Below the pieces are notes generated by a model. The model saw nothing but the letters and a program-made list of their open reading frames with translations, had not been told where the DNA came from and did not search any database. A DNA stretch of 40,559 nt, taken from the IMG/VR virus record IMGVR_UViG_3300031920_000219, positions 1-40,559 of that record; one strand, given 5' to 3'. The stretch's first letter is position 1; the number at the start of each line of letters is the position of its first letter. This DNA comes from a virus. The position numbers and the translations under genes were made by a program. Shown here in pieces: positions 18,964 to 40,559 of the stretch.

Positions 18964-19836
18964 TTACTTATTTTTTTCATAACGTGCAAGTAAACCATCT
19001 GTAATATATGTGTAAAAATAACCCAAAGGGTCTCTAGGGTTGTTAAATTTCTTTATTTCATAGTGTAAATGTGTTCCAGTACTGTAACCACTATTCCCAA
19101 CATACCCTATAAATTGATTTTTATCCACTTTCTGACCCTTTTTAACGTAGATAGTACTAAGATGTCCATAAAGTGTTTCAAACCCAAATTGATGCTTAAT
19201 AACGATTTTATTACCATATCCATGACGTGAGTAGGTTACATTCTCAACAACACCTTTTGCTGTCGAATATACTGGTTTACCATATTTAGTAATAATATCA
19301 ATACCATCATGAAACATTATTGTACCACTAACTGGATGTTTTCTCCAACCATAATATGAACTAATTTTTAAGAAATCTTTAGTTCTTATAGGTGAAATAT
19401 TAGGATAATATTGTTTAGTATATTTATTTTGCTTAAAGTATATTGATGTGTTTTCCACCTTTTTCAATTGTAACGCTAACATTTCTGCAGCATATAATGC
19501 TCTATCACTTATGTTTTCAAAAATTGAATCATTCAATTCAATTACTTTGAGTGCGTTATCGTTTCGATATAGATGGTAGTCAGTGGTGTCAAAATCAACA
19601 CCTAAAATTTGAGAATAAATTTCATTATCTACATTCTTTACTTTAATTAATCCATCTTCCAATATACGTAATCTATTTTCAAGTTCTATATAACGTTGAG
19701 GAAGATTACTAGCTGGATATGAATTATCTTCAATATGATCATCAGGTGCTATTGTTGTTGTTTGTAGACTTGTTGAGAAACTCAACAAACTTATTACTGT
19801 AATAAAAAACACAATAATTATTTTATTATTTTTCAT
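18964..19836 (-). CDS. Secreted M23 (LytM-type) peptidase
   Basis: A 290-residue protein with a signal peptide (KIIIVFFITVISLLSFSTSL) and a C-terminal peptidase M23 domain: SSYYGWRKHP, FHDGIDI (zinc His and Asp), YGHLS, and THLHYEI (zinc His). The central region is helical and may be regulatory. M23 enzymes cut peptide cross-links in peptidoglycan. A signal peptide is unusual for a tail lysozyme and suggests periplasmic action during infection or lysis. All metal ligands appear present. Confidence 0.9.
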   Translation of the reverse strand: MKNNKIIIVFFITVISLLSFSTSLQTTTIAPDDHIEDNSYPASNLPQRYIELENRLRILEDGLIKVKNVDNEIYSQILGVDFDTTDYHLYRNDNALKVIELNDSIFENISDRALYAAEMLALQLKKVENTSIYFKQNKYTKQYYPNISPIRTKDFLKISSYYGWRKHPVSGTIMFHDGIDIITKYGKPVYSTAKGVVENVTYSRHGYGNKIVIKHQFGFETLYGHLSTIYVKKGQKVDKNQFIGYVGNSGYSTGTHLHYEIKKFNNPRDPLGYFYTYITDGLLARYEKNK

Positions 19837-20042
19837 AATATATATTTAAATAAGATTATTTATTAAAGTGATATACTTTAATCTTGTTGTGTTGGGATTA
19901 AACCAACAAAGAAAATCATTGGTAATATGTTAATTCTTTTTTTCAAACTTAGATTGTTTAATTTAAGTTATTTTTTTAACGTTCCTCTAATAAATACAAG
20001 CAAATTTAGTTAAATTTTTTACATTAACAACATATATTATTA
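19837..20042. other. Non-coding gap with small inverted repeats
   Basis: 206 bases without a gene. It contains TAAAGT/ACTTTA around GATAT (19864-19880) and a TGTTGG/CCAACA hairpin (19890-19908). It separates two minus-strand genes and probably holds the M23 peptidase promoter and 5' leader. No RNA gene recognised. Confidence 0.4.
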
Positions 20043-20726
20043 TTAATATTGTTGGGATAGTTTTTTAGAAAGTCGCTTAATTATGGTATCTGGTTCAAAT
20101 TCAAATATGTGTGAATTATTAATTCTAATGAATCCAGTTTTCTGAAATCGTGAAAATAATTTATATTCATTTAATTCACTGTCCTTAGATTCTAATAGTT
20201 CTTCTAAACTATAATATTTAAATATTGGTTGTGATTTATAAAATTCCCAATCACTTTTATTATCTTGCATTGGGATAATATATGCAAATAGTTTAGAGTT
20301 TTTTTCAATATAAAAATCACGATACATGAATTCCATAAATTCATCAGTGATGCCCATTTTTTTATAGTCCGGATGTAAAACATATGTATGGATGATAATA
20401 ACTTTATCAAGATCATTAATTGAGGTTTTTTTTCTTTTTATTAATTTACCTAATTCAATATAACCACCTGTTTCATCAAATTTATTTAATAAAGTATCTA
20501 ATTTAATCCCAAATTTTCTAGCTAAACCAACATTCCAAACACTAAAACCAAATTCACCAATAAGTGTAGGTGATTTATTCTCTTTAATATTTAGTTTATT
20601 GATAACACCATCATATTCAGTAATGAAATGCTCATGCTTCATGGTGAGATCATAGTTTTTTCTATATATTGTTGTTTTAAAAGCCAGATTTTCCCACAAA
20701 TCTAAATCATTCTTCGTTCTTTTCAT
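20043..20726 (-). CDS. Possible GNAT-like N-acetyltransferase
   Basis: A 227-residue protein. Residues ~110-150 read DKVIIIHTYVLHPDYKKMG followed by ITDEFMEFMYRDFY, resembling the acetyl-CoA-binding strand and helix of GNAT enzymes (VxPxYxxxGI). Near the end, FSRFQKTGFIRINNSHIFEF resembles the terminal GNAT strands. Conservation of the Q/RxxGxG/A loop is weak, so the assignment is tentative. It overlaps the upstream gene (20707-21132) by 20 bases. Confidence 0.45.
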   Translation of the reverse strand: MKRTKNDLDLWENLAFKTTIYRKNYDLTMKHEHFITEYDGVINKLNIKENKSPTLIGEFGFSVWNVGLARKFGIKLDTLLNKFDETGGYIELGKLIKRKKTSINDLDKVIIIHTYVLHPDYKKMGITDEFMEFMYRDFYIEKNSKLFAYIIPMQDNKSDWEFYKSQPIFKYYSLEELLESKDSELNEYKLFSRFQKTGFIRINNSHIFEFEPDTIIKRLSKKLSQQY

Positions 20727-21132
20727 TTTCTAAATTTAATTCAAAACCTTTTCCCATTTTATCTAATAGATTTTTGTAGTATAATCCAACTTCTCCAGAT
20801 ATTATATAATCTATTGGTTTTAGATCATTTAATGCCTTTTCATCCCAATGAAGTTCAATATCATTTCGGTCCATGTCATTGATGAAATCATTAATTGTTG
20901 CAGGGGAAAGGGTGTTGAAACAACGACTTCCTTTATTTATTTGATAATAATCCGAACAAATACATAATTCAATATGGTTGTCATTATAAAATACATCGGT
21001 AAAAATACTATCATCTTTTCTTTTCCAACCTATAAATAAATTAGGGATATCCTTAAATTCAAATGGTTTATTTAAGAATTCCCTATATTTATCAGTTCTG
21101 TTAGTTTTTATGTAAGTTGTAACTTTTGTCAT
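20707..21132 (-). CDS. Hypothetical protein
   Basis: A 141-residue soluble protein, mixed alpha/beta, with an acidic C-terminal tail (LNLENEKNEE) and no recognised motif. It lies between the secreted protein gene (sharing its start/stop base at 21132) and the GNAT-like gene, which it overlaps, indicating co-translation of all three. Confidence 0.5.
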   Translation of the reverse strand: MTKVTTYIKTNRTDKYREFLNKPFEFKDIPNLFIGWKRKDDSIFTDVFYNDNHIELCICSDYYQINKGSRCFNTLSPATINDFINDMDRNDIELHWDEKALNDLKPIDYIISGEVGLYYKNLLDKMGKGFELNLENEKNEE

Positions 21133-21872
21133 TATAAATTTGTGTGACCATCAATGAAGAAATATCGACCATCTGACCATTTTCCAACTATTTTAATTCT
21201 TTTATCCTCAATAATTGTTGTATCAATAATTGTTGTAATGGTACAACCATCTGTTGTTGTAATGATATTACCTTCTTGTTTTTCAATTCTATATAACTTA
21301 TCAATTGGAAATGATCTTACTTTAGTGAAATCATAAGCAATTGAACCATCTTCACGAGTGAAATTAGGTGTGAACATATATGGTCTTGTAATTGTTTTAC
21401 GTTTATCAACATATATGGTTGTACCCATAATTATACAAAACACGTTTGAATAGATACCAGTACCTAAAGGTTTACTCACCCAACAAGGACCACTATACCA
21501 GTATGGATTAAAATCTGCAAAAATACCACTAAATTCTCTTCGACCCATACAGTGAATTGCCATAGGGTTTCTATTAGCTTTTTTCCAATCCGAATTAGTA
21601 ACTATGTTTTTACTATATAGATATAATCTTCTTTCAAGACAGTGTTCATAGTCTTCAAGTGGTTCATATGATACGACATATATCCAATCATTAACTTTGA
21701 AATAGATTGTGTAGTTTTTCATAACACCACTAAGTACTTTATTCCAATCTTTTGAAATTGAATACTCTTCATCAAGGTCTTCAATTGTTGCCTTTTGACG
21801 GATAGTGTAAATACTACCAAATGTTACATTGATTGTGAAAAGTAACGATAATAAGATTATTAATTTTTTCAT
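21132..21872 (-). CDS. Secreted protein of unknown function
   Basis: A 246-residue protein with an N-terminal signal peptide (KKLIILLSLLFTINVTFGS). The mature part is rich in aromatic residues and beta strands (WIYVVSYEPL, YWYSGPCWVSKPLGTG) with several cysteines (CLERR, HCMGR, GPCW, VFCI, DGCT), so disulphides in the periplasm are possible. No family recognised. Along with the M23 peptidase it is one of two exported proteins in this block. Confidence 0.55.
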   Translation of the reverse strand: MKKLIILLSLLFTINVTFGSIYTIRQKATIEDLDEEYSISKDWNKVLSGVMKNYTIYFKVNDWIYVVSYEPLEDYEHCLERRLYLYSKNIVTNSDWKKANRNPMAIHCMGRREFSGIFADFNPYWYSGPCWVSKPLGTGIYSNVFCIIMGTTIYVDKRKTITRPYMFTPNFTREDGSIAYDFTKVRSFPIDKLYRIEKQEGNIITTTDGCTITTIIDTTIIEDKRIKIVGKWSDGRYFFIDGHTNL

Positions 21873-21950
21873 GATTATTTGTTTTATATGTTCATTATAG
21901 TATACGATAAAATCGTGTTTAGGTTACATATAATCATAAAATAGTGGTGT

Positions 21951-22172
21951 TTATTCACTTAATTCATACTCACCAACAACTAAAACCATTAAATTTACCG
22001 GGATTTCACCCTTTATATTTTGACTAATCACTTGAGTTACAATATCTTCACTAAGTAATTCACCAATATTCATCCAAGTTCTGTTTTTTACTTCAAATAT
22101 TACTTCATCAGTATCAGAATTAAGGAATTGAACATTTAATCGGGGGTTATTGTCTACTTTTTTATATTTCAT
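21951..22172 (-). CDS. Small hypothetical protein
   Basis: A 73-residue protein, mixed alpha/beta (RLNVQFLNSDTDEVIFEVKN, then helix, then LMVLVVGEYEL). It is coupled to the upstream exonuclease gene by a 4-base overlap. No motif recognised. Confidence 0.5.
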   Translation of the reverse strand: MKYKKVDNNPRLNVQFLNSDTDEVIFEVKNRTWMNIGELLSEDIVTQVISQNIKGEIPVNLMVLVVGEYELSE

Positions 22173-22723
22173 TTTAGTCCTATTTTTAATCCCATTATTT
22201 TATTCATATACAGTAGTGCATGCGCATTTCCAAGTGCATCTTGAACCGGGTCATGTGTAGGATTAAATCCTTCATATTTTTTACCGTCAAATTCGAATGC
22301 TTCTTGACGTATATGTTTCCATTTACTATATGCATCACCAGTCATACCACAATAAAGATCACCGATTCTACGGGCAGAAAAACCGAAAGGATTTTCACCT
22401 AAAAAGAAATGAAAATAGAAATTAGTCCATTGCCAATCGAATGCAGGGTTATCACTGATAAATATTGGATGACCTTTTGAATTTTCTTTAATCCAATCCC
22501 GGAACTTAATCATAACATCTTCGGGTTCGTCAAATGTTTTATGTTCTTCACGGCTGAAACCACTAATGGCTAAAGCATCTGGTATCCATTCTGAAGCAAT
22601 TGGTCTTGTTTGACCATAAAATGTTTTACTTAATGTTGGTTCAACAATTACAGCACCAAAACATACCATACTATATTTCATAGGGATTGGTCCATCGGCT
22701 TCTACGTCTACTGATATGTACAT
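22169..22723 (-). CDS. DnaQ-like 3'-5' exonuclease (DEDDh)
   Basis: A 184-residue exonuclease with an intact DEDDh set: SVDVEADGP (D-x-E, residues 5-7), FISDNPAFDWQW (second Asp), and THDPVQDALGNAHAL (His and final Asp). The family includes proofreading subunits and RNA exonucleases such as RNase T and oligoribonuclease; the lack of other domains leaves the substrate open. It starts 3 bases after the HAD/HNH gene ends. Confidence 0.85.
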   Translation of the reverse strand: MYISVDVEADGPIPMKYSMVCFGAVIVEPTLSKTFYGQTRPIASEWIPDALAISGFSREEHKTFDEPEDVMIKFRDWIKENSKGHPIFISDNPAFDWQWTNFYFHFFLGENPFGFSARRIGDLYCGMTGDAYSKWKHIRQEAFEFDGKKYEGFNPTHDPVQDALGNAHALLYMNKIMGLKIGLK

Positions 22724-22725
22724 AT

Positions 22726-23256
22726 TTATATATTTTTTAATGTTAATTTAAAATCATTTTCACATAAAATTCCTTTTTTACTGTTAATGATACGACTACA
22801 TATACATAAGTTATTTATATTACCAATAATCTCATGGTTGATATTATTTTTAAAACCATTGTAAATACTTATTTTATGGTCAATAACTGGATAATTGGGG
22901 TTATTATAGTGAACATTTTTAAATAATTTAGTGTTGGTATAATAACATTTGTTATTCCATTCTGAAAATAATTTAGTCTTGTGGTTTTTTGTTATATTCC
23001 AAACCATTCTTCTATATTTTTCAAATTCATTAATTTCATTAAGTGGAATCCATTTTTTTAATTTTTCATTATATTTTCTATATTCAATTGATTTTGAATA
23101 GTGTGATACGTTATATCTATCTTTTATTGTTTGTGTTCTTTTTTCTTTAAATTTTTTAAATTGTGAAACATTATCAACACCGTATTTTTCATATTCTTGA
23201 GCATCGGTAACAATAACATCATCGATATCAAGAAATATTATTGGTTTATTTTTCAT
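22726..23256 (-). CDS. Chimeric protein: HAD motif I followed by an HNH endonuclease
   Basis: Start at 23256 (MKNKPIIFLDIDDV); an upstream in-frame ATG at 23277 would lengthen the overlap with the thermonuclease gene. The N-terminus has the HAD nucleophile motif FLDIDDVIVTD, but no other HAD motif follows. From about residue 70, an HNH nuclease appears: WNNKCYYTNTK, then VIDHKISIYNG, then NINNLCICSRIINSKKG (Cys pair, Asp-His, Asn/Lys). This looks like a HAD phosphatase gene interrupted or overtaken by a mobile HNH nuclease. An intact HAD partner is not seen nearby. Confidence 0.65.
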   Translation of the reverse strand: MKNKPIIFLDIDDVIVTDAQEYEKYGVDNVSQFKKFKEKRTQTIKDRYNVSHYSKSIEYRKYNEKLKKWIPLNEINEFEKYRRMVWNITKNHKTKLFSEWNNKCYYTNTKLFKNVHYNNPNYPVIDHKISIYNGFKNNINHEIIGNINNLCICSRIINSKKGILCENDFKLTLKNI

Positions 23257-23608
23257 ATGGTTTTGCAAATCCTTCATTTAGTAATCTTTGATTATAACTT
23301 TGTAATGAATTAAGATCATTGTAATCCATCGTATCGCCATATGGGTATATTTCACCTAACCAACGTCCATATTTTCCTTTATGATCTCTTTCAGTTACTA
23401 TTTGGATATCTTCATCTAATATCCATTCACTGAGTGCATATTTAGAGATTAAACCATCTGGTCTTTCTTCACCTCTAATTTCCGGGGTATTAATCCCTAA
23501 TAATCTGATGGTCTGTTTTTTCATCCAAATACCGAAACCAAGATCAATATCTACAGTTATGGTGTCACCATCATATACTTTTATTACATGTGCTTTATAA
23601 TGATACAT
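23246..23608 (-). CDS. Thermonuclease (staphylococcal nuclease fold)
   Basis: A 120-residue SNase-like nuclease. Characteristic motifs are VYDGDTITVDIDLG (calcium-binding Asp), RLLGINTPEIRGEE (catalytic Arg and Glu), and ERDHKGKYGRWLGEI (second Arg), all in the expected order. It has no signal peptide and so acts in the cytoplasm, perhaps on host DNA or RNA. It overlaps the HAD/HNH gene and starts 3 bases after the thioredoxin gene ends. Confidence 0.9.
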   Translation of the reverse strand: MYHYKAHVIKVYDGDTITVDIDLGFGIWMKKQTIRLLGINTPEIRGEERPDGLISKYALSEWILDEDIQIVTERDHKGKYGRWLGEIYPYGDTMDYNDLNSLQSYNQRLLNEGFAKPYEK

Positions 23609-23610
23609 AA

Positions 23611-23958
23611 TTATTTAAGGTGTTCGTCAATTAAATCGTTAATGTTTTTTTTAGGTAATGCACTCATTGTTAATTTAGGTTTACCAATTATTGGTACAAA
23701 TAATATTGAGGGTACTGATCTAATACCAATAATTTGAGTTAATTCACTTTCTTTATCAACATCAACACTATAAAAATCAATATCATCATGCTCAGACTCA
23801 ACTTCATTTAGAACAGGTTCTAACACCCTACATGGTGAACACCAGTCAGCACCGAATTTAACTATTGCTGGTTTTTCTCCATTAAATACCCACTCGCTAT
23901 TATTATCTGTATAGTTGAAAATTTTTTCTTTGAATAATTCTTTTGTTAAATTTATCAT
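23611..23958 (-). CDS. Thioredoxin
   Basis: A 115-residue protein with the thioredoxin fold and active site WCSPCR (C40, C43), preceded by PAIVKFGAD and followed later by the cis-proline segment RSVPSILFV. The CSPC variant replaces the usual CGPC. It could reduce a phage ribonucleotide reductase or serve as a polymerase partner; no such gene is in this window. An AAGTATTTAAA promoter-like sequence lies just upstream. Confidence 0.9.
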   Translation of the reverse strand: MINLTKELFKEKIFNYTDNNSEWVFNGEKPAIVKFGADWCSPCRVLEPVLNEVESEHDDIDFYSVDVDKESELTQIIGIRSVPSILFVPIIGKPKLTMSALPKKNINDLIDEHLK

Positions 23959-23971
23959 AATTGCTTTTAAT

Positions 23972-24541
23972 TTAAATACTTAGTTTCATGTTTTTATTGA
24001 TTTTCTGCCAAATTTCAGAACAGTATTTAATTTGTTGTTTACAATCATCAATAGGATGATGTTCAATACCTTCATTTTCAGATTGTACACTTGATTTAAT
24101 TTCCGGGAGGAATGATACTAATGTTCTCACATCTCTTTCTTTTCTAAAATCCCAACGTACTTTAGTGCTACATGCAATGTATGCATCTTCAAAGATTCCT
24201 AAATCAAAACGTGCAGAGTTACCCCATATATATACGTTTTTACAATCATCTTCACCTACATCGAATAAAAACAAATTAAATCTATCAAGTACGTCATCGA
24301 GATCAGGACCACCTTTTGCAATAGCTAATCGTGCTCGTTCATTTTGGGTCAACCACCAATATAGGGTATCTGGATTTATTTTAAGACCTAAATCTAAACA
24401 AGATTTTAAATTAATACCACTATAGAATTCTTCACCTAATTCACCAGTTTCAAGATCAAATTGAACTGCACCTATTGATACAATAGCTGAATTACTGTTT
24501 TTACCCATTGTTTCAAGGTCGAGCATTAAATGATTTTTCAT
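23972..24541 (-). CDS. 3'-5' exoribonuclease/DexA-like DEDDh exonuclease
   Basis: A 189-residue exonuclease of the Rv2179c-like (PF16473) type: MLDLETMG (D-x-E), VSIGAVQFDLETGELG, LYWWLTQNERAR (typical substrate helix), WGNSARFDLGIFEDAY (second Asp), and EHHPIDDCKQQIKY (His, last Asp). All catalytic residues are present. T4 DexA and exonuclease VIII have the same plan. It is one of two apparently active DEDD exonucleases in this minus-strand block. Confidence 0.85.
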   Translation of the reverse strand: MKNHLMLDLETMGKNSNSAIVSIGAVQFDLETGELGEEFYSGINLKSCLDLGLKINPDTLYWWLTQNERARLAIAKGGPDLDDVLDRFNLFLFDVGEDDCKNVYIWGNSARFDLGIFEDAYIACSTKVRWDFRKERDVRTLVSFLPEIKSSVQSENEGIEHHPIDDCKQQIKYCSEIWQKINKNMKLSI

Positions 24542-24550
24542 ATTATTTTT

Positions 24551-25084
24551 TTATTTAGTGTGACAAATATCGAGAAAATTCCAAAACTTTACAAGTTTAT
24601 CTTCGTTTAATAAATGTGTGTATTGTTTTAATGCTGTTTGAAATACATATTTTTTAAATTGATATTCATTAATATACATATTATGGTAAATGGTTTTTTT
24701 TTCTTTAGAATAACTTGAATTAGCACCAACATCAGCCATTTTTAATAGGATAGACCGATAATCATTAATTGTTTTAGGAAATGTGTGTAATTGTTTAAGT
24801 AATCTATTTTTTTCAGGTACATCCGTTACATTCAAAATGATATCTGCAACATTTTTACCACATATTTTTAATATTGTATTATATGATTGGTTGGTATCTT
24901 CTATAATATCGTGAAAAATACTCGCTTTTAATGTTATAATATAATCATCTTGATTAAGAAAAACATCTTTATTTTTTTTTAGTATTTCAGATACCATATC
25001 AATATGATACATATAATCCATATTATCATATGAACAATTAGATTGTTTATATATTTGTTGTGCTATAATTCTTAATTTTTCCAT
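24551..25084 (-). CDS. HD-domain phosphohydrolase (SpoT-like)
   Basis: A 177-residue protein with HD-domain residues in order: MYHIDMVSEIL (first His), ASIFHDIIEDTN (HD plus ED, as in RelA/SpoT hydrolases), and LLKMADVGANS (distal Asp). There is no synthetase or TGS domain. It may hydrolyse (p)ppGpp or another nucleotide, countering host alarmone signalling, or act on dNTPs; the sequence supports the fold, not the substrate. It abuts the homing nuclease gene by a single base. Confidence 0.8.
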   Translation of the reverse strand: MEKLRIIAQQIYKQSNCSYDNMDYMYHIDMVSEILKKNKDVFLNQDDYIITLKASIFHDIIEDTNQSYNTILKICGKNVADIILNVTDVPEKNRLLKQLHTFPKTINDYRSILLKMADVGANSSYSKEKKTIYHNMYINEYQFKKYVFQTALKQYTHLLNEDKLVKFWNFLDICHTK

Positions 25085-25705
25085 TTAAATATGTTTCCAT
25101 GTATATCTATGTATTATTTTCCAAATACATGGTTTATTAACTTTATAATTTTCTGCGAGTTCTTTTACCTTAGTTCCATTATTAAAATCATTTCTAATCT
25201 TAATCACAATATCATCAGTTAATTTAGAGTTGTTATTATTAACACCTAATTTTTTTATTGATTGTTTATGTTTTGTAATATCATTATGTTTTTTACCTGT
25301 GCGAAATTTTTTTAATTTATTTTTTACTTTATCAGTGTGGGTTTTACCATACATTGGATTGTTTTTTCCTTTAACATTTGCATGGTTTTTCGATATATTA
25401 TCTCTATGTTTTTTTGGTAATTTTTTACCTAAAAAACTGTCATTACCTTCACCCCCTGAAGTTATATTATATCCTATTGTTCTATCTTGTGTTTTTAGTT
25501 TTTTTATCCAATAAATTTCACGTTTATTAAGTGTTTTCATATCATTACAATATTCAATTATTTCTTTTGTGAAATTATCTTTTCCATATTTTTTAATTGC
25601 TAATTTAATTAATTTTCCTGACCCAAAATATGTTTTTTTATTTAATTTATGTTTACCTATATAAATTTTATAATTAATTTTATTTATTATTTTATAAACA
25701 TACAT
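25085..25705 (-). CDS. GIY-YIG homing endonuclease with NUMOD motifs
   Basis: A 206-residue protein. The N-terminal GIY-YIG domain (VYKIINKINYKIYIGKHK, then TYFGSG, EIIEYC, REIYWIKKL, GYNITSGGEG) is followed by NUMOD3-type DNA-binding repeats (KHRDNISKNHANVKG, NNPMYGKTHTDKVKNKL, and a third) and a C-terminal helix-turn-helix (KVKELAENYKVNKPCIWKII). It is a free-standing mobile nuclease like T4 Seg proteins. A promoter-like motif precedes it. Confidence 0.9.
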   Translation of the reverse strand: MYVYKIINKINYKIYIGKHKLNKKTYFGSGKLIKLAIKKYGKDNFTKEIIEYCNDMKTLNKREIYWIKKLKTQDRTIGYNITSGGEGNDSFLGKKLPKKHRDNISKNHANVKGKNNPMYGKTHTDKVKNKLKKFRTGKKHNDITKHKQSIKKLGVNNNNSKLTDDIVIKIRNDFNNGTKVKELAENYKVNKPCIWKIIHRYTWKHI

Positions 25706-35131: not shown

Positions 35132-35641
35132 ATGGAAAAAAATAAAATAAAAGATTTTTTAATATCGTTATCAAATAAAATTGATGATGATAATATTGAA
35201 CTTTATAAGAAGATCATTGAAGGTTCAGAAATTAAACACTTTGATGGTCCTGAAGAGTTTTTCTATGCGGTTATATATCCTTGGGAAAATTTTATAACAG
35301 GATTTTTAAACAATGAAATAAGTCTAAATAGAGATGTTGTTTTTATTTACGAAAATTCACAATATATTGATAGAAGTTTTTCAAATTTATTTGAAAAGTT
35401 TGAAGGTAGTGCTTGTTCATCAGATAAATCGAGAACAATAATAAAAAGGTTATTACATTTTTATTTAACCGGGGATAAAATTGAGTTTGATTATAGTGCT
35501 GAATATACCTATCACTTACCTACAGAGATATTTAAGACCCATGATGTTATTGTTTTATTTTATGAGGGGTTAAAGAGTCTATTATATGGTAATAATGAAA
35601 AATATTTAAAAGCGTTGGAAACATTAAATTTAGTAAAATGA
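35132..35641 (+). CDS. Hypothetical protein partnered with ABC ATPase
   Basis: A 169-residue, acidic, mostly helical protein without a recognised motif, overlapping the downstream ATPase gene by 4 bases (ATGA). Such strict coupling suggests that it works with the ATPase. Confidence 0.5.
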   Translation: MEKNKIKDFLISLSNKIDDDNIELYKKIIEGSEIKHFDGPEEFFYAVIYPWENFITGFLNNEISLNRDVVFIYENSQYIDRSFSNLFEKFEGSACSSDKSRTIIKRLLHFYLTGDKIEFDYSAEYTYHLPTEIFKTHDVIVLFYEGLKSLLYGNNEKYLKALETLNLVK

Positions 35642-36402
35642 TTGATAGTATAAAATTTAAGGAAGTTGTAGACTTTCCAGTTAGTAGAGAAGATCATTAT
35701 AGATTTCCTGTTAAACATATAACACCAGATAATTGGAGTAGGAATAAAGAACCTTATGATGTGTTTGAACTATTCCCAAAAGGAATGACTATTAAATTAA
35801 AACTAATTAATGTTATTGTTGGTGATAATGGTAGTGGTAAATCTACATTTTTAGATGTAATTAAAGGGTATATTGGTAAACCACCTGATGATTCATTTTC
35901 TTCATTTAATATGGATGATCTTACTGATGAAGAGCGTGAAGAAAATGAAACTAAAGAACGTATTAAAAGATCATCAATAACAATAAAATCTAAAGAACCA
36001 ATATCATATAAAAATCTTGTGGTTTTTAATGCTGAAAAAGATAATCCAGCAGTTGCAATACCAAAAATGTTAAATCCGGATAGTAAAGATTTTCCGGGTT
36101 TAGTGAATCAGTTGTTTTGTAGTCATGAAGACAGTCATGGTGAGAGTTTAATTCCAATATTAGATTTGTTACTAACTAAAGTCCATGATTGTGTTATTTG
36201 TATGGATGAACCTGAAACTGCACTTAGTTTAAAAAATCAAATTAGAATTACTAATCTAATTAAAGAATCTGTAGAAAAACGAAATACTCAAATAATTATC
36301 TGCACACATTCTTTAGTTATTATTCAAATGTTTGAAGATTTATATGATATGGATGCACGTACTTGGGTAAAAAGTATTGATTATATTAAATCAATAATGT
36401 AA
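35638..36402 (+). CDS. ABC-type (AAA_15/21-like) ATPase, last phage gene
   Basis: A 254-residue ATPase with Walker A VGDNGSGKST (61-70), Walker B VICMDEPETALS (~186-197), and the H-loop IIICTHSLVII. The coiled-coil or insertion region is short, so it resembles soluble ABC ATPases of the AAA_15/AAA_21 group found in phages and defence systems (for example OLD- or RloC-like) rather than a transporter. A partner nuclease is not obvious. It is the last gene before the cassette array, whose first site starts 42 bases after its stop. Confidence 0.8.
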   Translation: MIDSIKFKEVVDFPVSREDHYRFPVKHITPDNWSRNKEPYDVFELFPKGMTIKLKLINVIVGDNGSGKSTFLDVIKGYIGKPPDDSFSSFNMDDLTDEEREENETKERIKRSSITIKSKEPISYKNLVVFNAEKDNPAVAIPKMLNPDSKDFPGLVNQLFCSHEDSHGESLIPILDLLLTKVHDCVICMDEPETALSLKNQIRITNLIKESVEKRNTQIIICTHSLVIIQMFEDLYDMDARTWVKSIDYIKSIM

Positions 36403-36444
36403 AAAAGTTTTGTGATACTAGCAATGAGGTAGTGTTTAATTATT

Positions 36445-36572
36445 TATAACGGTGTGGCTATTAATGCTAACGGATTAACTGCACAAAATTACAAATATGA
36501 GACAAAGTAAATTAATATTATAACCCTACGGATAAGCACGACACCGCTATTATTTATGAGCCGTTGTTATGC
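36445..36572 (+). repeat. attC-like site A
   Basis: Left TATAACGG; right GTTATGC (36566-36572). Best stem is GGCTATTAAT against ATTATTTATGAGCC, with spacers GGTGT and GTT. It also holds a second left-type motif, TATTAATGCTAACGG (36459-36473), 15 bases identical to the left arm of site D; the site may be a composite. It lies at the phage/array junction. Confidence 0.7.
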
Positions 36573-36588
36573 CCCGAATACTAAAATT

Positions 36589-37005
36589 ATGAGTGATTAC
36601 GTACACAACAAGGTAGTTAGATTGCCTTTTCCGAACGAAATTGTTAACAGATTTAATGCTGATGATGCTTATGATTGTGAAAAACAATTAAAAGAACTAT
36701 TGGGCGAACTTTGGGATAATAGCAAAAAGAATAGTTTTAAACTAGAATGCACTGATGATGGTTATTATATAGATTGGGTTTATTACTCAACTTATGGCGA
36801 GGAATCGGGAGATTTTGGAAATATTAGAATGCTTACACAAAGGGAGCTTCATGTGATAAAGCCATATTTTGATAAGCTTAAAGTTGATTACAAAGATGAA
36901 GATTTAAGAGTAGTTGATTACTGCTATTATAATTGTTGTGAAGCTCCCGATTATTACGAAATAAAAACGGCTGATGATGCTGAGTTGTTCGTTAATGGGG
37001 TATAA
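36589..37005 (+). CDS. Cassette 1: hypothetical protein
   Basis: Start chosen at 36589 (MSDYVHNKVVRLPF). The frame is also open from an ATG at 36556 inside attC site A, which would add 11 residues. The 138-residue protein is acidic and contains many Tyr and Cys (YCYYNCCEAPDYYEI). No family recognised. Its stop TAA is part of the TATAACG of site B, so gene end and recombination site overlap. Confidence 0.65.
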   Translation: MSDYVHNKVVRLPFPNEIVNRFNADDAYDCEKQLKELLGELWDNSKKNSFKLECTDDGYYIDWVYYSTYGEESGDFGNIRMLTQRELHVIKPYFDKLKVDYKDEDLRVVDYCYYNCCEAPDYYEIKTADDAELFVNGV

Positions 37006-37130
37006 CGTTTTGTGTATGAAATCGAAACGGGAACTGTAACAAAAGTGAATTAAATACGTATAATATAAAAATAACCAATAAAGTTAGTAAATAGAACGAA
37101 AGTAGTTTTGTTTTATACACTTTGTTATAA
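37001..37130 (+). repeat. attC-like site B
   Basis: Left TATAAC-GTTTT-GTGTATG..., right ...ATACAC-TTT-GTTATAA. After the unpaired spacer, GTGTAT pairs perfectly with ATACAC and pairing continues for about 10 more bases with one conserved G/T position. Length is 130 bp with a long loop. Confidence 0.88.
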
Positions 37131-37141
37131 ACTGTTGAATT

Positions 37142-37417
37142 ATGGGCAAGAAATTTAAGTTTGAAGAATCAATCAGAGTAAGAGTAAAAACATCTGATGA
37201 TTGGCATCCTAATCATAAAGGTGATTTAGTAGAAGTGTCTTATTTAGGGAAGTTGCCTGATGGTAACAGTAGAGTTTGTGTTTGGGGTGCTGATGATTTA
37301 GGTATGGAATATGACGTGAAAGATAAGGGATTGGCAAGAAAAATGTTTAGAAAATTAAAAGATAAAGATAATATAACAAAAGCAGAATTAATATCATTGG
37401 GGTTTGTATATGCTTAA
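37142..37417 (+). CDS. Cassette 2: hypothetical protein
   Basis: A 91-residue protein with a likely small beta-barrel in the first 60 residues (SIRVRVKTSDDWHPNH, GDLVEVSYLGKLPDG, SRVCVWGADDLGMEYDV) and a basic helical end. The pattern could be SH3-like, but no family is recognised. ATG lies 12 bases after R' of site B; the stop lies 5 bases before site C. Confidence 0.65.
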   Translation: MGKKFKFEESIRVRVKTSDDWHPNHKGDLVEVSYLGKLPDGNSRVCVWGADDLGMEYDVKDKGLARKMFRKLKDKDNITKAELISLGFVYA

Positions 37418-37422
37418 TGTTT

Positions 37423-37476
37423 TATAACGGTTAGTATAAGACCCGTTTTTTCTATGGGTTTTATACATTGTTAGTA
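37423..37476 (+). repeat. attC-like site C (short form)
   Basis: A compact 54-bp site. Left TATAAC-GGTTA-GTATAAGACCCG, right TGGGTTTTATAC-ATT-GTTAGTA. GTATAA-ACCC pairs with GGGT-TTATAC, with the conserved G/T position. Its size equals the shortest classical attC sites. Confidence 0.9.
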
Positions 37477-37511
37477 TTAGTACGGAATATTAATAACTAA
37501 ATATAATAAAT

Positions 37512-37691
37512 ATGAAAATTTACAAAATTGAATGCGAGTGGGAAATGCCATTAGCACAAGGAACTTTTAAGACAAGAGAAAAAGCACAAAAGGCTATTGA
37601 TAATGAAGAATGGGAAGATTACACAGAACACACTTTAGAAGAAGTACAAGAGGATGGTATGGTTAGTATTGTTGAAATAGACGTAAAGTAG
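37512..37691 (+). CDS. Cassette 3: small acidic protein
   Basis: A 59-residue protein (MKIYKIECEWEMPLAQGTFK at the start), highly acidic in its second half (NEEWEDYTEHTLEEVQEDGM). Its beta-helix-beta-like order recalls tiny single-domain proteins common in gene cassettes. It sits alone between sites C and D. No family recognised. Confidence 0.6.
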   Translation: MKIYKIECEWEMPLAQGTFKTREKAQKAIDNEEWEDYTEHTLEEVQEDGMVSIVEIDVK

Positions 37692-37698
37692 TATTAAT

Positions 37699-37816
37699 GC
37701 TAACGGTTCGTGTAAGAACCGTTTTTAAACTGAATTAAATGATTAGATAAAATAAATTATAAACCAACAAAGGTGATTAGAACCACAAACAAAATGGTTT
37801 TTACACTTTGTTATAA
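37699..37816 (+). repeat. attC-like site D
   Basis: Left GCTAAC-GGTTC-GTGTAAGAACCG, right TGGTTTTTACAC-TTT-GTTATAA. GTGTAA-AACC pairs with GGTT-TTACAC. Length 118 bp. Confidence 0.9.
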
Positions 37817-37827
37817 AATGTTAAAAT

Positions 37828-38037
37828 ATGGAAACAATAAAATTGAAAGACACAGAAAAAGTAGAGTATTTAATTAAAAAGAGAGATGATAAAATTGAAC
37901 ATTTAAGTGAATTACTTAAAATTAATGACGAAAAATCACAATCAATTTTTAATGAAATTATTACTTTAAATAAACAATTAAAATTAGAAGAAGATTTGAT
38001 GATAGTTAAAACACTTACTTCTGTTAATATTTTATAA
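37828..38037 (+). CDS. Cassette 4: small coiled-coil protein
   Basis: A 69-residue helical protein with heptad-like spacing (VEYLIKKRDDKIEHLSELL) and high charge. It is probably a short coiled coil. Its stop TAA forms part of TATAACG of site E. Function unknown. Confidence 0.6.
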   Translation: METIKLKDTEKVEYLIKKRDDKIEHLSELLKINDEKSQSIFNEIITLNKQLKLEEDLMIVKTLTSVNIL

Positions 38038-38161
38038 CGTTAAATATAAGAATAGTAGGCGATTTGAAAACGCTGAACTTCGCAAACAGAATAAAGTTAA
38101 TTAAATGAATATAAACTACCTACACGCAGAAACCGCCTATTATTTTTATATATTGTTAGGG
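38033..38161 (+). repeat. attC-like site E
   Basis: Left TATAAC-GTTAA-ATATAAGAATAGTAGGCG, right CGCCTATTATTTTTATAT-ATT-GTTAGGG. The inner arms match over 18 positions except for two G/T positions. The loop contains a block (38094-38118) that is 24/25 identical to one in site I. Confidence 0.92.
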
Positions 38162-38198
38162 TTTCGTTTTTGTGCGGTGGGGTAAATAACTAAATAAA

Positions 38199-38465
38199 AT
38201 GAAATATTCGAAATTAGAACAAATAGTTAGAGAAGAAGCACATACGCTAAAAGAAAATGCTGGTTACTCAGGAGCTTGGAATGATGGTGGTTCAGCTAAT
38301 TTATTAACAATACTTGACCAATTTAAACAAAGCTTAGTTGTAAAACACGACTTGCGACATTCTGAATATGGACAACTTAATAGTACTGATGTTGGAGAAC
38401 CAGAAGCATTTTTAAGCATAATTGATAAGTATAAGTTAAAAATTGCAAAGGGTATTGAGTTGTAG
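38199..38465 (+). CDS. Cassette 5: hypothetical protein
   Basis: An 88-residue helical protein (MKYSKLEQIVREEAHTLKEN at the start; GYSGAWNDGGSANLLTILDQF in the middle). No recognised domain. The stop lies 18 bases before site F. Confidence 0.6.
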   Translation: MKYSKLEQIVREEAHTLKENAGYSGAWNDGGSANLLTILDQFKQSLVVKHDLRHSEYGQLNSTDVGEPEAFLSIIDKYKLKIAKGIEL

Positions 38466-38483
38466 TGTGCGTTGGTAAATGAA

Positions 38484-38544
38484 GCCTAACGTATGATTGT
38501 ATGATTTCGTTGCTTTTCGCAATGAATTATACAACGTGTTACAT
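38484..38544 (+). repeat. attC-like site F (short form)
   Basis: A 61-bp site. Left GCCTAAC (a perfect RYYYAAC inverse core), then TTGTATGATTTCGTTGC; right GCAATGAATTATACAA-CGT-GTTACAT. TTGTAT...TTGC pairs with GCAA...ATACAA. This is the site closest to classical core sequences on its left side. Confidence 0.9.
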
Positions 38545-38591
38545 GCTTTCTTTTATTTTTTAGGGAGGGTTTTATTTAAAAATTTAATTAT

Positions 38592-39206
38592 ATGAAGATA
38601 CTTAATTTATACGCTGGAATAGGCGGAAACAGAAAGAACTGGAAAGATGCAGATGTAACTGCTATTGAGTACAACCAAGAAATTGCAGATGTATATAAAC
38701 AATTACACCCCAATGATACAGTAATTGTGGCAGATGCACACGAATATTTGGCTAAACATTGGAGAGAGTTTGATTTTATATGGAGTAGCCCACCATGCCA
38801 AAGCCACAGTAAAGTGAGAATGATGGCAAGTAAAGGAGGAAGTTATGATGCTATAATGCCAGATATGACACTATGGGCTGAAATAATATTTTTACAAAAC
38901 TTTACAAAAAACACAGATATTGGTTTTGCTGTTGAAAATGTGAAACCATATTATGAACCATTTGTAAAGCCTACTGTAAAATTAGGTAGGCACTTAATTT
39001 GGAGTAATTTTGATATACCTGAAAATGTGATAAAAGATGGATTGAAGCACAACGAAAGAGGGAGCAGTGATAAAGGTTATTTTGATTTAAGACCTTTTAA
39101 ACTAAAACACAGAAAAGACCAAATAATTAGAAATTGTGCCGACCCTAATATTGGAGAGTATATTTTAAATTGCTTTGAAAAAGCAAAAGAGCGTGGGCAA
39201 AAATAA
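38592..39206 (+). CDS. Cassette 6: compact cytosine-C5 DNA methyltransferase
   Basis: A 204-residue protein. Motif I is NLYAGIGG (5-12), the acidic AdoMet contact is AIEYN (24-28), motif IV WSSPPCQSHS has catalytic C69, motif VI is AVENVKPYY (E115), and motif VIII-like is GRHLIWSNF. It is much shorter than typical ~300-400-residue enzymes, with little room for a target-recognition domain and no clear motif IX/X, as in short phage-type Dcm enzymes. No restriction partner is in the array. It may mask DNA from restriction or act as an orphan methylase. It is the only cassette with a recognised enzyme. Confidence 0.88.
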   Translation: MKILNLYAGIGGNRKNWKDADVTAIEYNQEIADVYKQLHPNDTVIVADAHEYLAKHWREFDFIWSSPPCQSHSKVRMMASKGGSYDAIMPDMTLWAEIIFLQNFTKNTDIGFAVENVKPYYEPFVKPTVKLGRHLIWSNFDIPENVIKDGLKHNERGSSDKGYFDLRPFKLKHRKDQIIRNCADPNIGEYILNCFEKAKERGQK

Positions 39207-39215
39207 AATATTGCA

Positions 39216-39340
39216 TGTAACGCTAAGTATAATAACTGTTGCGACTTTACAAGTAAATAACCTTTAAATTAAACACCAAATGAATAGATTAAAACAAACT
39301 TTAAGTAAGATAAAGCAATGGTTTTTATACATTGTTAGTG
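39216..39340 (+). repeat. attC-like site G
   Basis: Left TGTAAC-GCTAA-GTATAATAACTGTTGC, right GCAATGGTTTTTATAC-ATT-GTTAGTG. GTATAA-AAC...TTGC pairs with GCAA...GTT-TTATAC. The ATG of the following ORF (39280) lies in this site's loop. Confidence 0.88.
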
Positions 39341-39468
39341 GTAGTACTTATGGTAAATGTAAGCACCTTAACAAAAAAGAAGTTTATAGAGATTACCCTG
39401 ATGCTTACATAGAATATGAATGTTTAGATTGTGACGAAAGAATATTTGAAGATATGTACAATAGTTAA
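39280..39468 (+). CDS. Cassette 7: small zinc-knuckle-like protein opening inside attC
   Basis: A 62-residue ORF. The cassette-borne part holds CKHLNKKEVYRDYPDAY and YECLDCDERIFED, i.e. CxxH...CxxC, likely a zinc knuckle. After the recombination point (39334) there is no in-frame ATG, GTG or TTG; translation must begin at ATG 39280 in the loop of site G or at a non-standard codon. The first 18 residues (MNRLKQTLSKIKQWFLYI) are thus encoded by the upstream attC and would change if the cassette moved. Confidence 0.55.
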   Translation: MNRLKQTLSKIKQWFLYIVSGSTYGKCKHLNKKEVYRDYPDAYIEYECLDCDERIFEDMYNS

Positions 39469-39484
39469 TGGTTTTTGTATTACC

Positions 39485-39616
39485 ACTAACGTATATGGTA
39501 TGGTGACGTTGCGACCTTATAACACAAACTTAATTAATAACACAAAAACTTTTAAATTATGAATACAGATAATAAAAATACAGAAACCAAGCAATGCACT
39601 ATACCAAGTGTTATGC
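39485..39616 (+). repeat. attC-like site H
   Basis: Left ACTAAC-GTATA-TGGTATGGTGACGTTGC, right GCAATGCACTATACCA-AGT-GTTATGC. TGGTAT-GTG...TTGC pairs with GCAA...CAC-ATACCA. The R' element contains the likely ATG of the next gene. Confidence 0.9.
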
Positions 39617-39792
39617 ATCGTGCATTACAATGGTGGAAAAACCTACCAGACCACGGTGCAAAAAACACAACTTTTAATGAGTGTAGGTTTGAAACAAAGG
39701 GTGGACTAACTAACGTATACCACTATGGTAAATTTTGCACCGATTTAACAGATGATGAAATAATGAAAATATATGAACTGCATGGTGCATAA
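39613..39792 (+). CDS. Cassette 8: small hypothetical protein
   Basis: Start at ATG 39613, which is the ATG inside the GTTATGC core of site H. The frame is also open from 39559 within the attC loop, adding 18 site-encoded residues. The 59-residue product (MHRALQWWKNLPDHGAKNTT at the start, FCTDLTDDEIMKIYELH near the end) is unrecognised. Its stop TAA is part of CATAACG of site I. Confidence 0.6.
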   Translation: MHRALQWWKNLPDHGAKNTTFNECRFETKGGLTNVYHYGKFCTDLTDDEIMKIYELHGA

Positions 39793-39907
39793 CGGTTTGT
39801 ATATGAAACGATGTGAACTGAGCTAAATTAGAAAGAAATGAAGTTAATTAATTGAATATAAACTAAACAAAAGACCACAAAACATTGTTTTATATACTTT
39901 GTTATGT
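39788..39907 (+). repeat. attC-like site I
   Basis: Left CATAAC-GGTTT-GTATATGAAACGATG, right CATTGTTTTATATAC-TTT-GTTATGT. GTATAT-AAAC-ATG pairs with CAT-GTTT-ATATAC. The loop carries the block shared with site E (39841-39865). Confidence 0.92.
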
Positions 39908-39920
39908 GGCGTTAAATGAT

Positions 39921-40100
39921 ATGGCACGAACTTTTAAATTTATAAAAACAACAAAGAATGGTGTTACGATAAACACAAATACTTGTATGATACAAGATAT
40001 TTTAGAATCAGGTGGTAAGACAAAAGTCTTTATAATTGACCATTGGCGAGAAACTACCTTAACTGAAAAAGAAATACATAAGATACATAATGCCATATAA
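39921..40100 (+). CDS. Cassette 9: small hypothetical protein
   Basis: Start at ATG 39921 (MARTFKFIKTTKNG), 14 bases after site I. The frame is open back to 39885 inside site I, adding 12 site-encoded residues. The 59-residue product has a beta-hairpin-like start, KTKVFIIDHWRETTLTEKEI, and a helical end. It resembles cassette 8 in size and in its ...EKEIHKIHNA / DDEIMKIYEL ending. The stop TAA is inside TATAACG of site J. Confidence 0.6.
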   Translation: MARTFKFIKTTKNGVTINTNTCMIQDILESGGKTKVFIIDHWRETTLTEKEIHKIHNAI

Positions 40101-40189
40101 CGGTTTGTGTATGGTTTGAAAGCCATAGCAATCAACTTTGAATTAATTACCAACCTTAATTGGCTTTTTAACTATACACGTTGTTATAG
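40096..40189 (+). repeat. attC-like site J
   Basis: Left TATAAC-GGTTT-GTGTATGGTTTGAAAGCC, right GGCTTTTTAACTATACAC-GTT-GTTATAG. The arms match over 18 positions with two or three mismatches. Length 94 bp. Confidence 0.92.
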
Positions 40190-40213
40190 CCAGTTATTTT
40201 AAATAAACGAAAA

Positions 40214-40417
40214 ATGAATAAATTACTTTTTAAATTAGAAAGAAACTTCAATGATAATATAACATTGATAACAAACAATCACAAAGATTTAGATGACTAC
40301 TTAAATAAAAACTACGATTGGTATAAGATTGAAGTTAAAGAAGATAGTGTTATAATAAAAGAGTGTGAAGGTTACGAAAACGATATTGCCTTGTTGGAAT
40401 GGGTGAAGCACGTTTAA
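40214..40417 (+). CDS. Cassette 10: small hypothetical protein
   Basis: A 67-residue protein (MNKLLFKLERNFNDNITLIT at the start; WYKIEVKEDSVIIKECEGYE near the end), mixed alpha/beta, acidic. ATG lies 24 bases after site J. The stop lies 5 bases before site K. No family recognised. Confidence 0.6.
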   Translation: MNKLLFKLERNFNDNITLITNNHKDLDDYLNKNYDWYKIEVKEDSVIIKECEGYENDIALLEWVKHV

Positions 40418-40422
40418 TTGGC

Positions 40423-40552
40423 TATAACGGCTCTAATAAGAATAGTAGCCGATTTACAGCACGATGATTGATTGAATTACAAATATTATTAACCGAATAA
40501 TAGCTTAATACAAAGCACCTTAACAGGCTATTATTTTTATTTATTGTTAGGG
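40423..40552 (+). repeat. attC-like site K, end of window
   Basis: Left TATAAC-GGCTC-TAATAAGAATAGTAGCC, right GGCTATTATTTTTATTTA-TT-GTTAGGG. Its right arm is nearly identical to that of site E. The window stops 7 bases later, so the array probably continues. Confidence 0.9.
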
Positions 40553-40559
40553 TGCGTTA

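Follow-up and report, generated by a model that had tools for sequence, protein, structure and literature searches.

Integrons are gene-capture devices of bacteria. The systems closest to the locus described here are the clusters of attC sites lacking integrases (CALINs) that Qi et al. (2023; PMC9892861) found in the virulent phages Polaribacter P12002L, Tetrasphaera TJE1 and Pseudoalteromonas PH101, where five of six tested phage sites recombined with IntI1. Here we analyse the IMG/VR record IMGVR_UViG_3300031920_000219, filed as a virus, a linear contig of 40,559 bp taken whole (hereafter the window), the right end of which falls inside an integron-type cassette array. Like that array, the published phage CALINs combine attC arrays with small genes, include DNA methyltransferases and have no integrase gene; unlike it, they are small, with few attC sites, and were read as captured fragments. 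The same paper reports for the virulent phages no recombinase of their own, no attI and no systematic gene inversion, and its main text does not mention the Cellulophaga or Freya phages discussed below. An integron-type cassette array in a phage, as a preliminary description of this sequence proposed, is therefore a type of finding already published, and it is supported here; what goes beyond it is the reversed orientation of the genes and a clade of recombinases adjoining such arrays. The literature searched, which did not extend to most subscription papers and preprints, holds no description of a phage-own integron platform or of inverted phage cassettes, though this is not proof of novelty. 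We think it likely that the window ends in a phage-borne array of integron cassettes, of which it shows the far and oldest part, and that such arrays can belong to a dedicated phage platform.

Eleven attC-type sites and ten complete single-gene units occupy positions 36444–40553, with every gene on the + strand. The sites all lie on one strand, have the form TAACG...GTTA and are 56–134 bp long. In the following, + is the gene strand, the canonical attC strand being minus. The sites attC 2 to attC 11 were each identified by alignment, covariation, model R1 and a scanner, and attC 1 by the first three. The cassettes follow from ends that match across the gene and from the list of open reading frames (ORFs), and cassette 6 from the matches given with it.

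36444–36573, +, attC 1, at the left end of the array (the distal one in integron terms)
36450–37005, +, cassette 1: attC 1 and gene 36589–37005, with no assigned function
37000–37131, +, attC 2
37006–37427, +, cassette 2: attC 2 and gene 37142–37417
37422–37477, +, attC 3, short
37428–37703, +, cassette 3: attC 3 and gene 37512–37691
37698–37817, +, attC 4
37704–38037, +, cassette 4: attC 4 and gene 37828–38037
38032–38162, +, attC 5
38038–38489, +, cassette 5: attC 5 and gene 38199–38465
38484–38545, +, attC 6, short
38490–39220, +, cassette 6: attC 6 and gene 38592–39206, a C5-cytosine DNA methyltransferase (PF00145, E 8.8e-11; phrog_363)
39215–39341, +, attC 7
39221–39489, +, cassette 7: attC 7 and a gene with its end at 39468 and an uncertain start, the ATG listed at 39280 falling within attC 7
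39484–39617, +, attC 8, sharing 82% identity with a site of the Polaribacter Freya phages
39490–39792, +, cassette 8: attC 8 and gene 39613–39792
39787–39908, +, attC 9
39793–40100, +, cassette 9: attC 9 and gene 39921–40100
40095–40190, +, attC 10
40101–40427, +, cassette 10: attC 10 and gene 40214–40417
40422–40553, +, attC 11, which shares 73% identity with a site of Cellulophaga phage phi19:3; its gene lies past the contig end
1–36402, mixed strands, phage backbone: replication, nuclease, lysis and regulatory genes

When the eleven sites are aligned, 97.3% of the cells of the inner (L) helix are paired and both sides have changed in eight of ten pairs, giving a covariation score of 0.532; shuffles score 0.178 (standard deviation 0.033), and slid partners do not exceed 0.124. 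The scanner, which is rule-based and separate from the alignment, recovered ten of the eleven sites, missing only attC 1, and found no site in the other 36 kb, on the minus strand or in 20 shuffles. The eleven attC-like sites and ten cassettes of the preliminary description are thus borne out. A covariance model, made from these eleven sites instead of taken from a published source, matched independent sites, outside its training set, in the cultured phages Cellulophaga phi19:3 (3 sites, best E 5e-11), phi13:2 (7 sites), phi18:3 and phi46:3, and Polaribacter Freya. An Rfam search for an attC-like family gave no match for the window sites. Of the eight bases outside the core, a mean of 5.9 agree between the two ends that flank a gene, compared to 2.3 within a site and 2.5 for other pairs (permutation p = 1e-5), an agreement of unit ends that is expected from the insertion of separate circles. 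Measured from TAA^C to TAA^C, the recombination units are 556, 422, 276, 334, 452, 731, 269, 303, 308 and 327 bp long; the cassette lengths of the preliminary description are exactly the GTTA-to-GTTA spacings, but they are not the lengths of the recombining units. Four of the ten cassettes take their stop codon from the TAA of the following core, and three listed ORF starts (36556, 39559 and 39885) are too early, the likelier ones being 36589, 39613 and 39921. The array has what characterises a CALIN, at least two folded R/L-box sites with single-gene units between crossover cores, and the sites are attC. Terminators or other intergenic hairpins would likewise be able to fold and lie between same-strand genes, but the fixed asymmetric cores, the covarying arms and the unit ends matching across the gene speak against them, and they are contradicted by relatives in which the crossover junctions fall precisely on the core, which leaves this explanation a negligible probability.

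Those junctions can be seen most directly in cultured phages. Polaribacter Freya_2, Freya_6 and Freya_10 are 99.99% identical over ~44.8 kb, and the differences between them (0, 1374 and ~4100 bp) arise at a single point beside the phage integrase, where every junction falls at YAAC| and is followed by an invariant right side, ACCCCTATAACAACAATAAG. Cellulophaga phi13:2 and phi19:3 have cassettes in common at 96–99%, in swapped order and with edges at (T)AAC|, and their arrays finish in a constant right end followed by another tyrosine recombinase. Together these junctions place the crossover on the TAACG side (G^TTA on the minus strand). The canonical attC strand is thus the minus strand, to which the genes run antisense, and each unit consists of an attC and then a gene. 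Being antisense to attC, the genes are read with the phage operon. Sense orientation is the usual integron criterion, if not a strictly defining one, and all ten genes in the window are inverted relative to it.

Tyrosine recombinases of 264–277 amino acids (aa; ~268 aa) lie downstream of the arrays in several viral contigs. We aligned five of them and searched viral contigs regardless of arrays, keeping 80 of 171 relatives. Upstream sequence of 1.5 kb or more is available for 58 recombinase loci, and in 49 of these it contains attC, with 154 sites on the gene strand and one on the opposite strand; downstream of the recombinases in these 58 loci there are five sites on the gene strand and none on the opposite strand. 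Several sets of contigs have recombinase genes that are 100% identical, and in these the upstream sequence changes abruptly at |TAAC, 47–55 bp before the ATG, where different cassettes are joined. A conserved attI lies ~35–55 bp ahead of the recombinase start codon, and 70 of 77 loci, compared to 63 of 1600 control windows, contain an attI-like motif, TAACTATTATATATAAACA. Used as the sole search key, the motif picked out 13 contigs; in five of them it leads to an unrelated family of 460-aa ORFs with no attC near, so it is not diagnostic alone. The phage recombinases form one clade (99/92), separate from the chromosomal ones and from Xer, in which Freya is a long branch. Contigs carrying the recombinase reach 362 kb, and a terminase scores above the cut-off in 11 of 50 of them. 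In four Cellulophaga phage loci a recombinase of a different family (~428 aa) occupies the position of the ~268-aa enzyme, which suggests that unrelated recombinases took the same role.

From this arrangement it appears that Bacteroidota phage arrays can belong to a dedicated platform, in which the cassettes read toward attI and are followed by a same-strand ~268-aa IntI/XerA-like tyrosine recombinase. New cassettes would enter at attI, immediately ahead of the recombinase gene. As integrons do, the array would gain and shed units, each a folding attC with one small gene, through site-specific recombination that crosses over in the RYYYAA^C core, which reads G^TTRRRY on the minus strand. The natural junctions suggest that the recombinase joins attI to attC, and it may act on folded single strands. 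Among NCBIfam families it matches NF040815 (XerA / integron integrase) best, though below the cut-off, and the closest PDB entry to its predicted structure (predicted local distance difference test 86.5) is 2A3V, the Vibrio cholerae integron integrase on attC. The platform thus resembles class 1 and Vibrio-type integrons in having attI beside the recombinase gene, an array starting from there, folding attC sites, a G^TT crossover and a fold nearest that of V. cholerae IntI. If instead the recombinase in these relatives were an ordinary prophage integrase, with cassettes beside it by chance, a tyrosine recombinase would also be expected, and ordinary prophage-type integrases do occur far from the array in some contigs. 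That account is at odds with the fixed distance, side and strand of the neighbourhood, with a variable junction exactly at the attI core and with a predicted fold nearest to integron integrase, and we regard it as quite improbable.

The clearest difference from host integrons is the direction of the genes. One exact asymmetric attC pattern was used on viral contigs (79 stretches) and on bacterial genomes (at least 119 stretches, mostly Bacteroidota). Of the genes lying between adjacent sites, 33 of 38 in viral contigs (33:5) have the strand seen in the window, but only 4 of 101 in chromosomes (4:97, among the matches listed; Fisher 3e-22), counted without de-duplication. The window-like orientation holds by 29:5 in viral arrays with no adjacent recombinase and by 46:3 in phage loci selected by recombinase, and all ten genes of the window have it. 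Cassettes in phage arrays are therefore reversed relative to chromosomal Bacteroidota cassettes of the same attC pattern. As host cassettes face the other way, a captured one would be antisense to the phage genes, and the free exchange with host integrons that had been envisaged for the array is not suggested by these data. Five viral contigs have cassettes in the chromosomal orientation; these contigs may come from a host or belong to phages that have acquired cassettes from one.

Bacteroidota chromosomal integrons, such as those of Maribacter litopenaei and Lacinutrix neustonica, are like the phage arrays in their asymmetric attC pattern and in having beside the array a recombinase of the same broad family, NF040815. 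They differ in that the recombinase is ~375 aa, the array is downstream and the genes are canonical, whereas in phages the enzyme is ~268 aa, the array is upstream and the genes are inverted. In Treponema integrons (PMC3607928), too, intI does not have its customary direction with respect to the array: it points at the cassettes, as in Bacteroidota chromosomes, whereas in phages it is the cassettes that read toward the recombinase. In nine Bacteroidota chromosomal loci we observed a ~375-aa NF040815-type recombinase followed by attC arrays with canonical genes, the same intI-then-array order as in Treponema. Such chromosomal integrons look common here, and few are reported by IntegronFinder 2.0. 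In one of these loci (L236) together with Lacinutrix neustonica (NZ_CP113088.1, ~835–992 kb), attC sites extend over ~150 kb and the recombinase gene beside them is broken by stops, which may represent a superintegron-like array whose integrase is no longer functional. As a test for host integrases, TIGR02249 matched 25 of 25 genomes and also 14 of 14 controls, so a family match alone is uninformative.

Orientation also bears on whether the array is an ordinary passive CALIN, that is, a stretch of a host chromosomal integron captured by the phage, or cassettes inserted by a host integrase, with no phage platform. Published integrase-less phage CALINs (PMC9892861) and the wide occurrence of the same attC pattern in Bacteroidota chromosomes agree with such an origin, as do the lack of a recombinase on the contig and the lack of an adjacent one in most attC-selected viral arrays. 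The host orientation (97 of 101) would however be expected to persist, while the window is reversed throughout and viral arrays without an adjacent recombinase are mostly reversed too. In addition, a relative of cassette 6 (50% identity) sits in a phage array with its own recombinase (L310), two cassettes ahead of attI and the recombinase, which ties cassette 6 to the phage pool. We judge passive capture unlikely.

Several points nevertheless weigh against a phage-own platform at this locus. The phage recombinases score 97–170 bits with TIGR02249 (IntI), far below the cut-off of 265, and are ~48 aa shorter over the stretch matching IntI4 175–259, the site of the IntI insertion; in these respects, and in genes that read toward attI and not away from it, the phage platform is unlike class 1 and Vibrio-type integrons. 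By position and fold the enzyme probably works like an integron integrase, and by the family test it is not IntI. Among viral arrays that were selected by attC and have 4 kb or more of downstream sequence, only 5 of 29 have a recombinase next to them, and the orientation counts include any duplicates. No terminase, capsid, portal or other structural phage gene was seen among the window genes, and two backbone proteins used as queries found no close relatives of the contig. Phage sequence is visible on the left flank of the array only. No tyrosine recombinase (PF00589) matches within the contig, so the absence of an integrase stated earlier is true of the contig itself; many related phages have a recombinase just past the array, however, and the contig stops before the expected place of attI and recombinase. 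That the window phage has its own recombinase beyond the contig end seems possible rather than probable, and the array may have been built by that enzyme or by one acting in trans.

A further reading is a host chromosomal integron misassembled onto a phage contig, or a prophage edge beside a chromosomal integron; in its favour, the array reaches the contig end and no close relative of the contig was found. All ten genes are phage-facing, though, an orientation seen in 4 of 101 chromosomal units; GC content is similar on the two sides of the boundary (0.274 and 0.300); and such arrays are present in complete genomes of cultured phages. We therefore hold a chimera to be very improbable indeed, and retain the reading of the window as the far end of a phage-borne array.

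The last backbone gene, an AAA ATPase at 35638–36402 (+), stops 42 bp short of attC 1, in agreement with the earlier observation that phage genes run to 42 bases before the first site. No sequence overlap was found at the contig end. Several window proteins have relatives in recombinase-carrying viral contigs, one of them at 65% identity. A minus-strand gene block at 18964–25705 (homing endonuclease, exonuclease, endonuclease VII-like and endolysin-like genes) interrupts the otherwise plus-strand contig. Apart from the methyltransferase of cassette 6, the other nine cassette genes have no Pfam match above the cut-off (cassettes 8 and 9 were scanned as the longer listed ORFs). In the related loci examined, the relatives of window cassettes are the methyltransferase plus short matches only. 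Among 98 cassette genes of related phage arrays there are about eleven DNA methyltransferases and one Lar-type restriction-alleviation protein, which makes an anti-restriction role of the cargo reasonable; such genes may help the phage to evade host restriction.

More broadly, and with less assurance than for the window itself, we lean towards the view that Bacteroidota phages, very large ones included, encode their own integrons, each with a compact IntI/XerA-like recombinase, an attI and an array of inverted cassettes. Their cassette pool would be kept from host integrons by orientation, would be rich in methyltransferases and would be reshuffled as an anti-restriction stock, with the window as the far end of one such array. 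If this is true, phages swap accessory genes as single-gene units without homology, which would account for hypervariable spots between near-identical phage isolates such as those of Freya. The list of phage CALINs becomes a system that can be tested in cultured phages (Cellulophaga phi13:2, phi19:3, phi18:3 and phi46:3, and Polaribacter Freya), and orientation offers a simple reason why the phage and host pools may stay apart despite a common type of recombination site.

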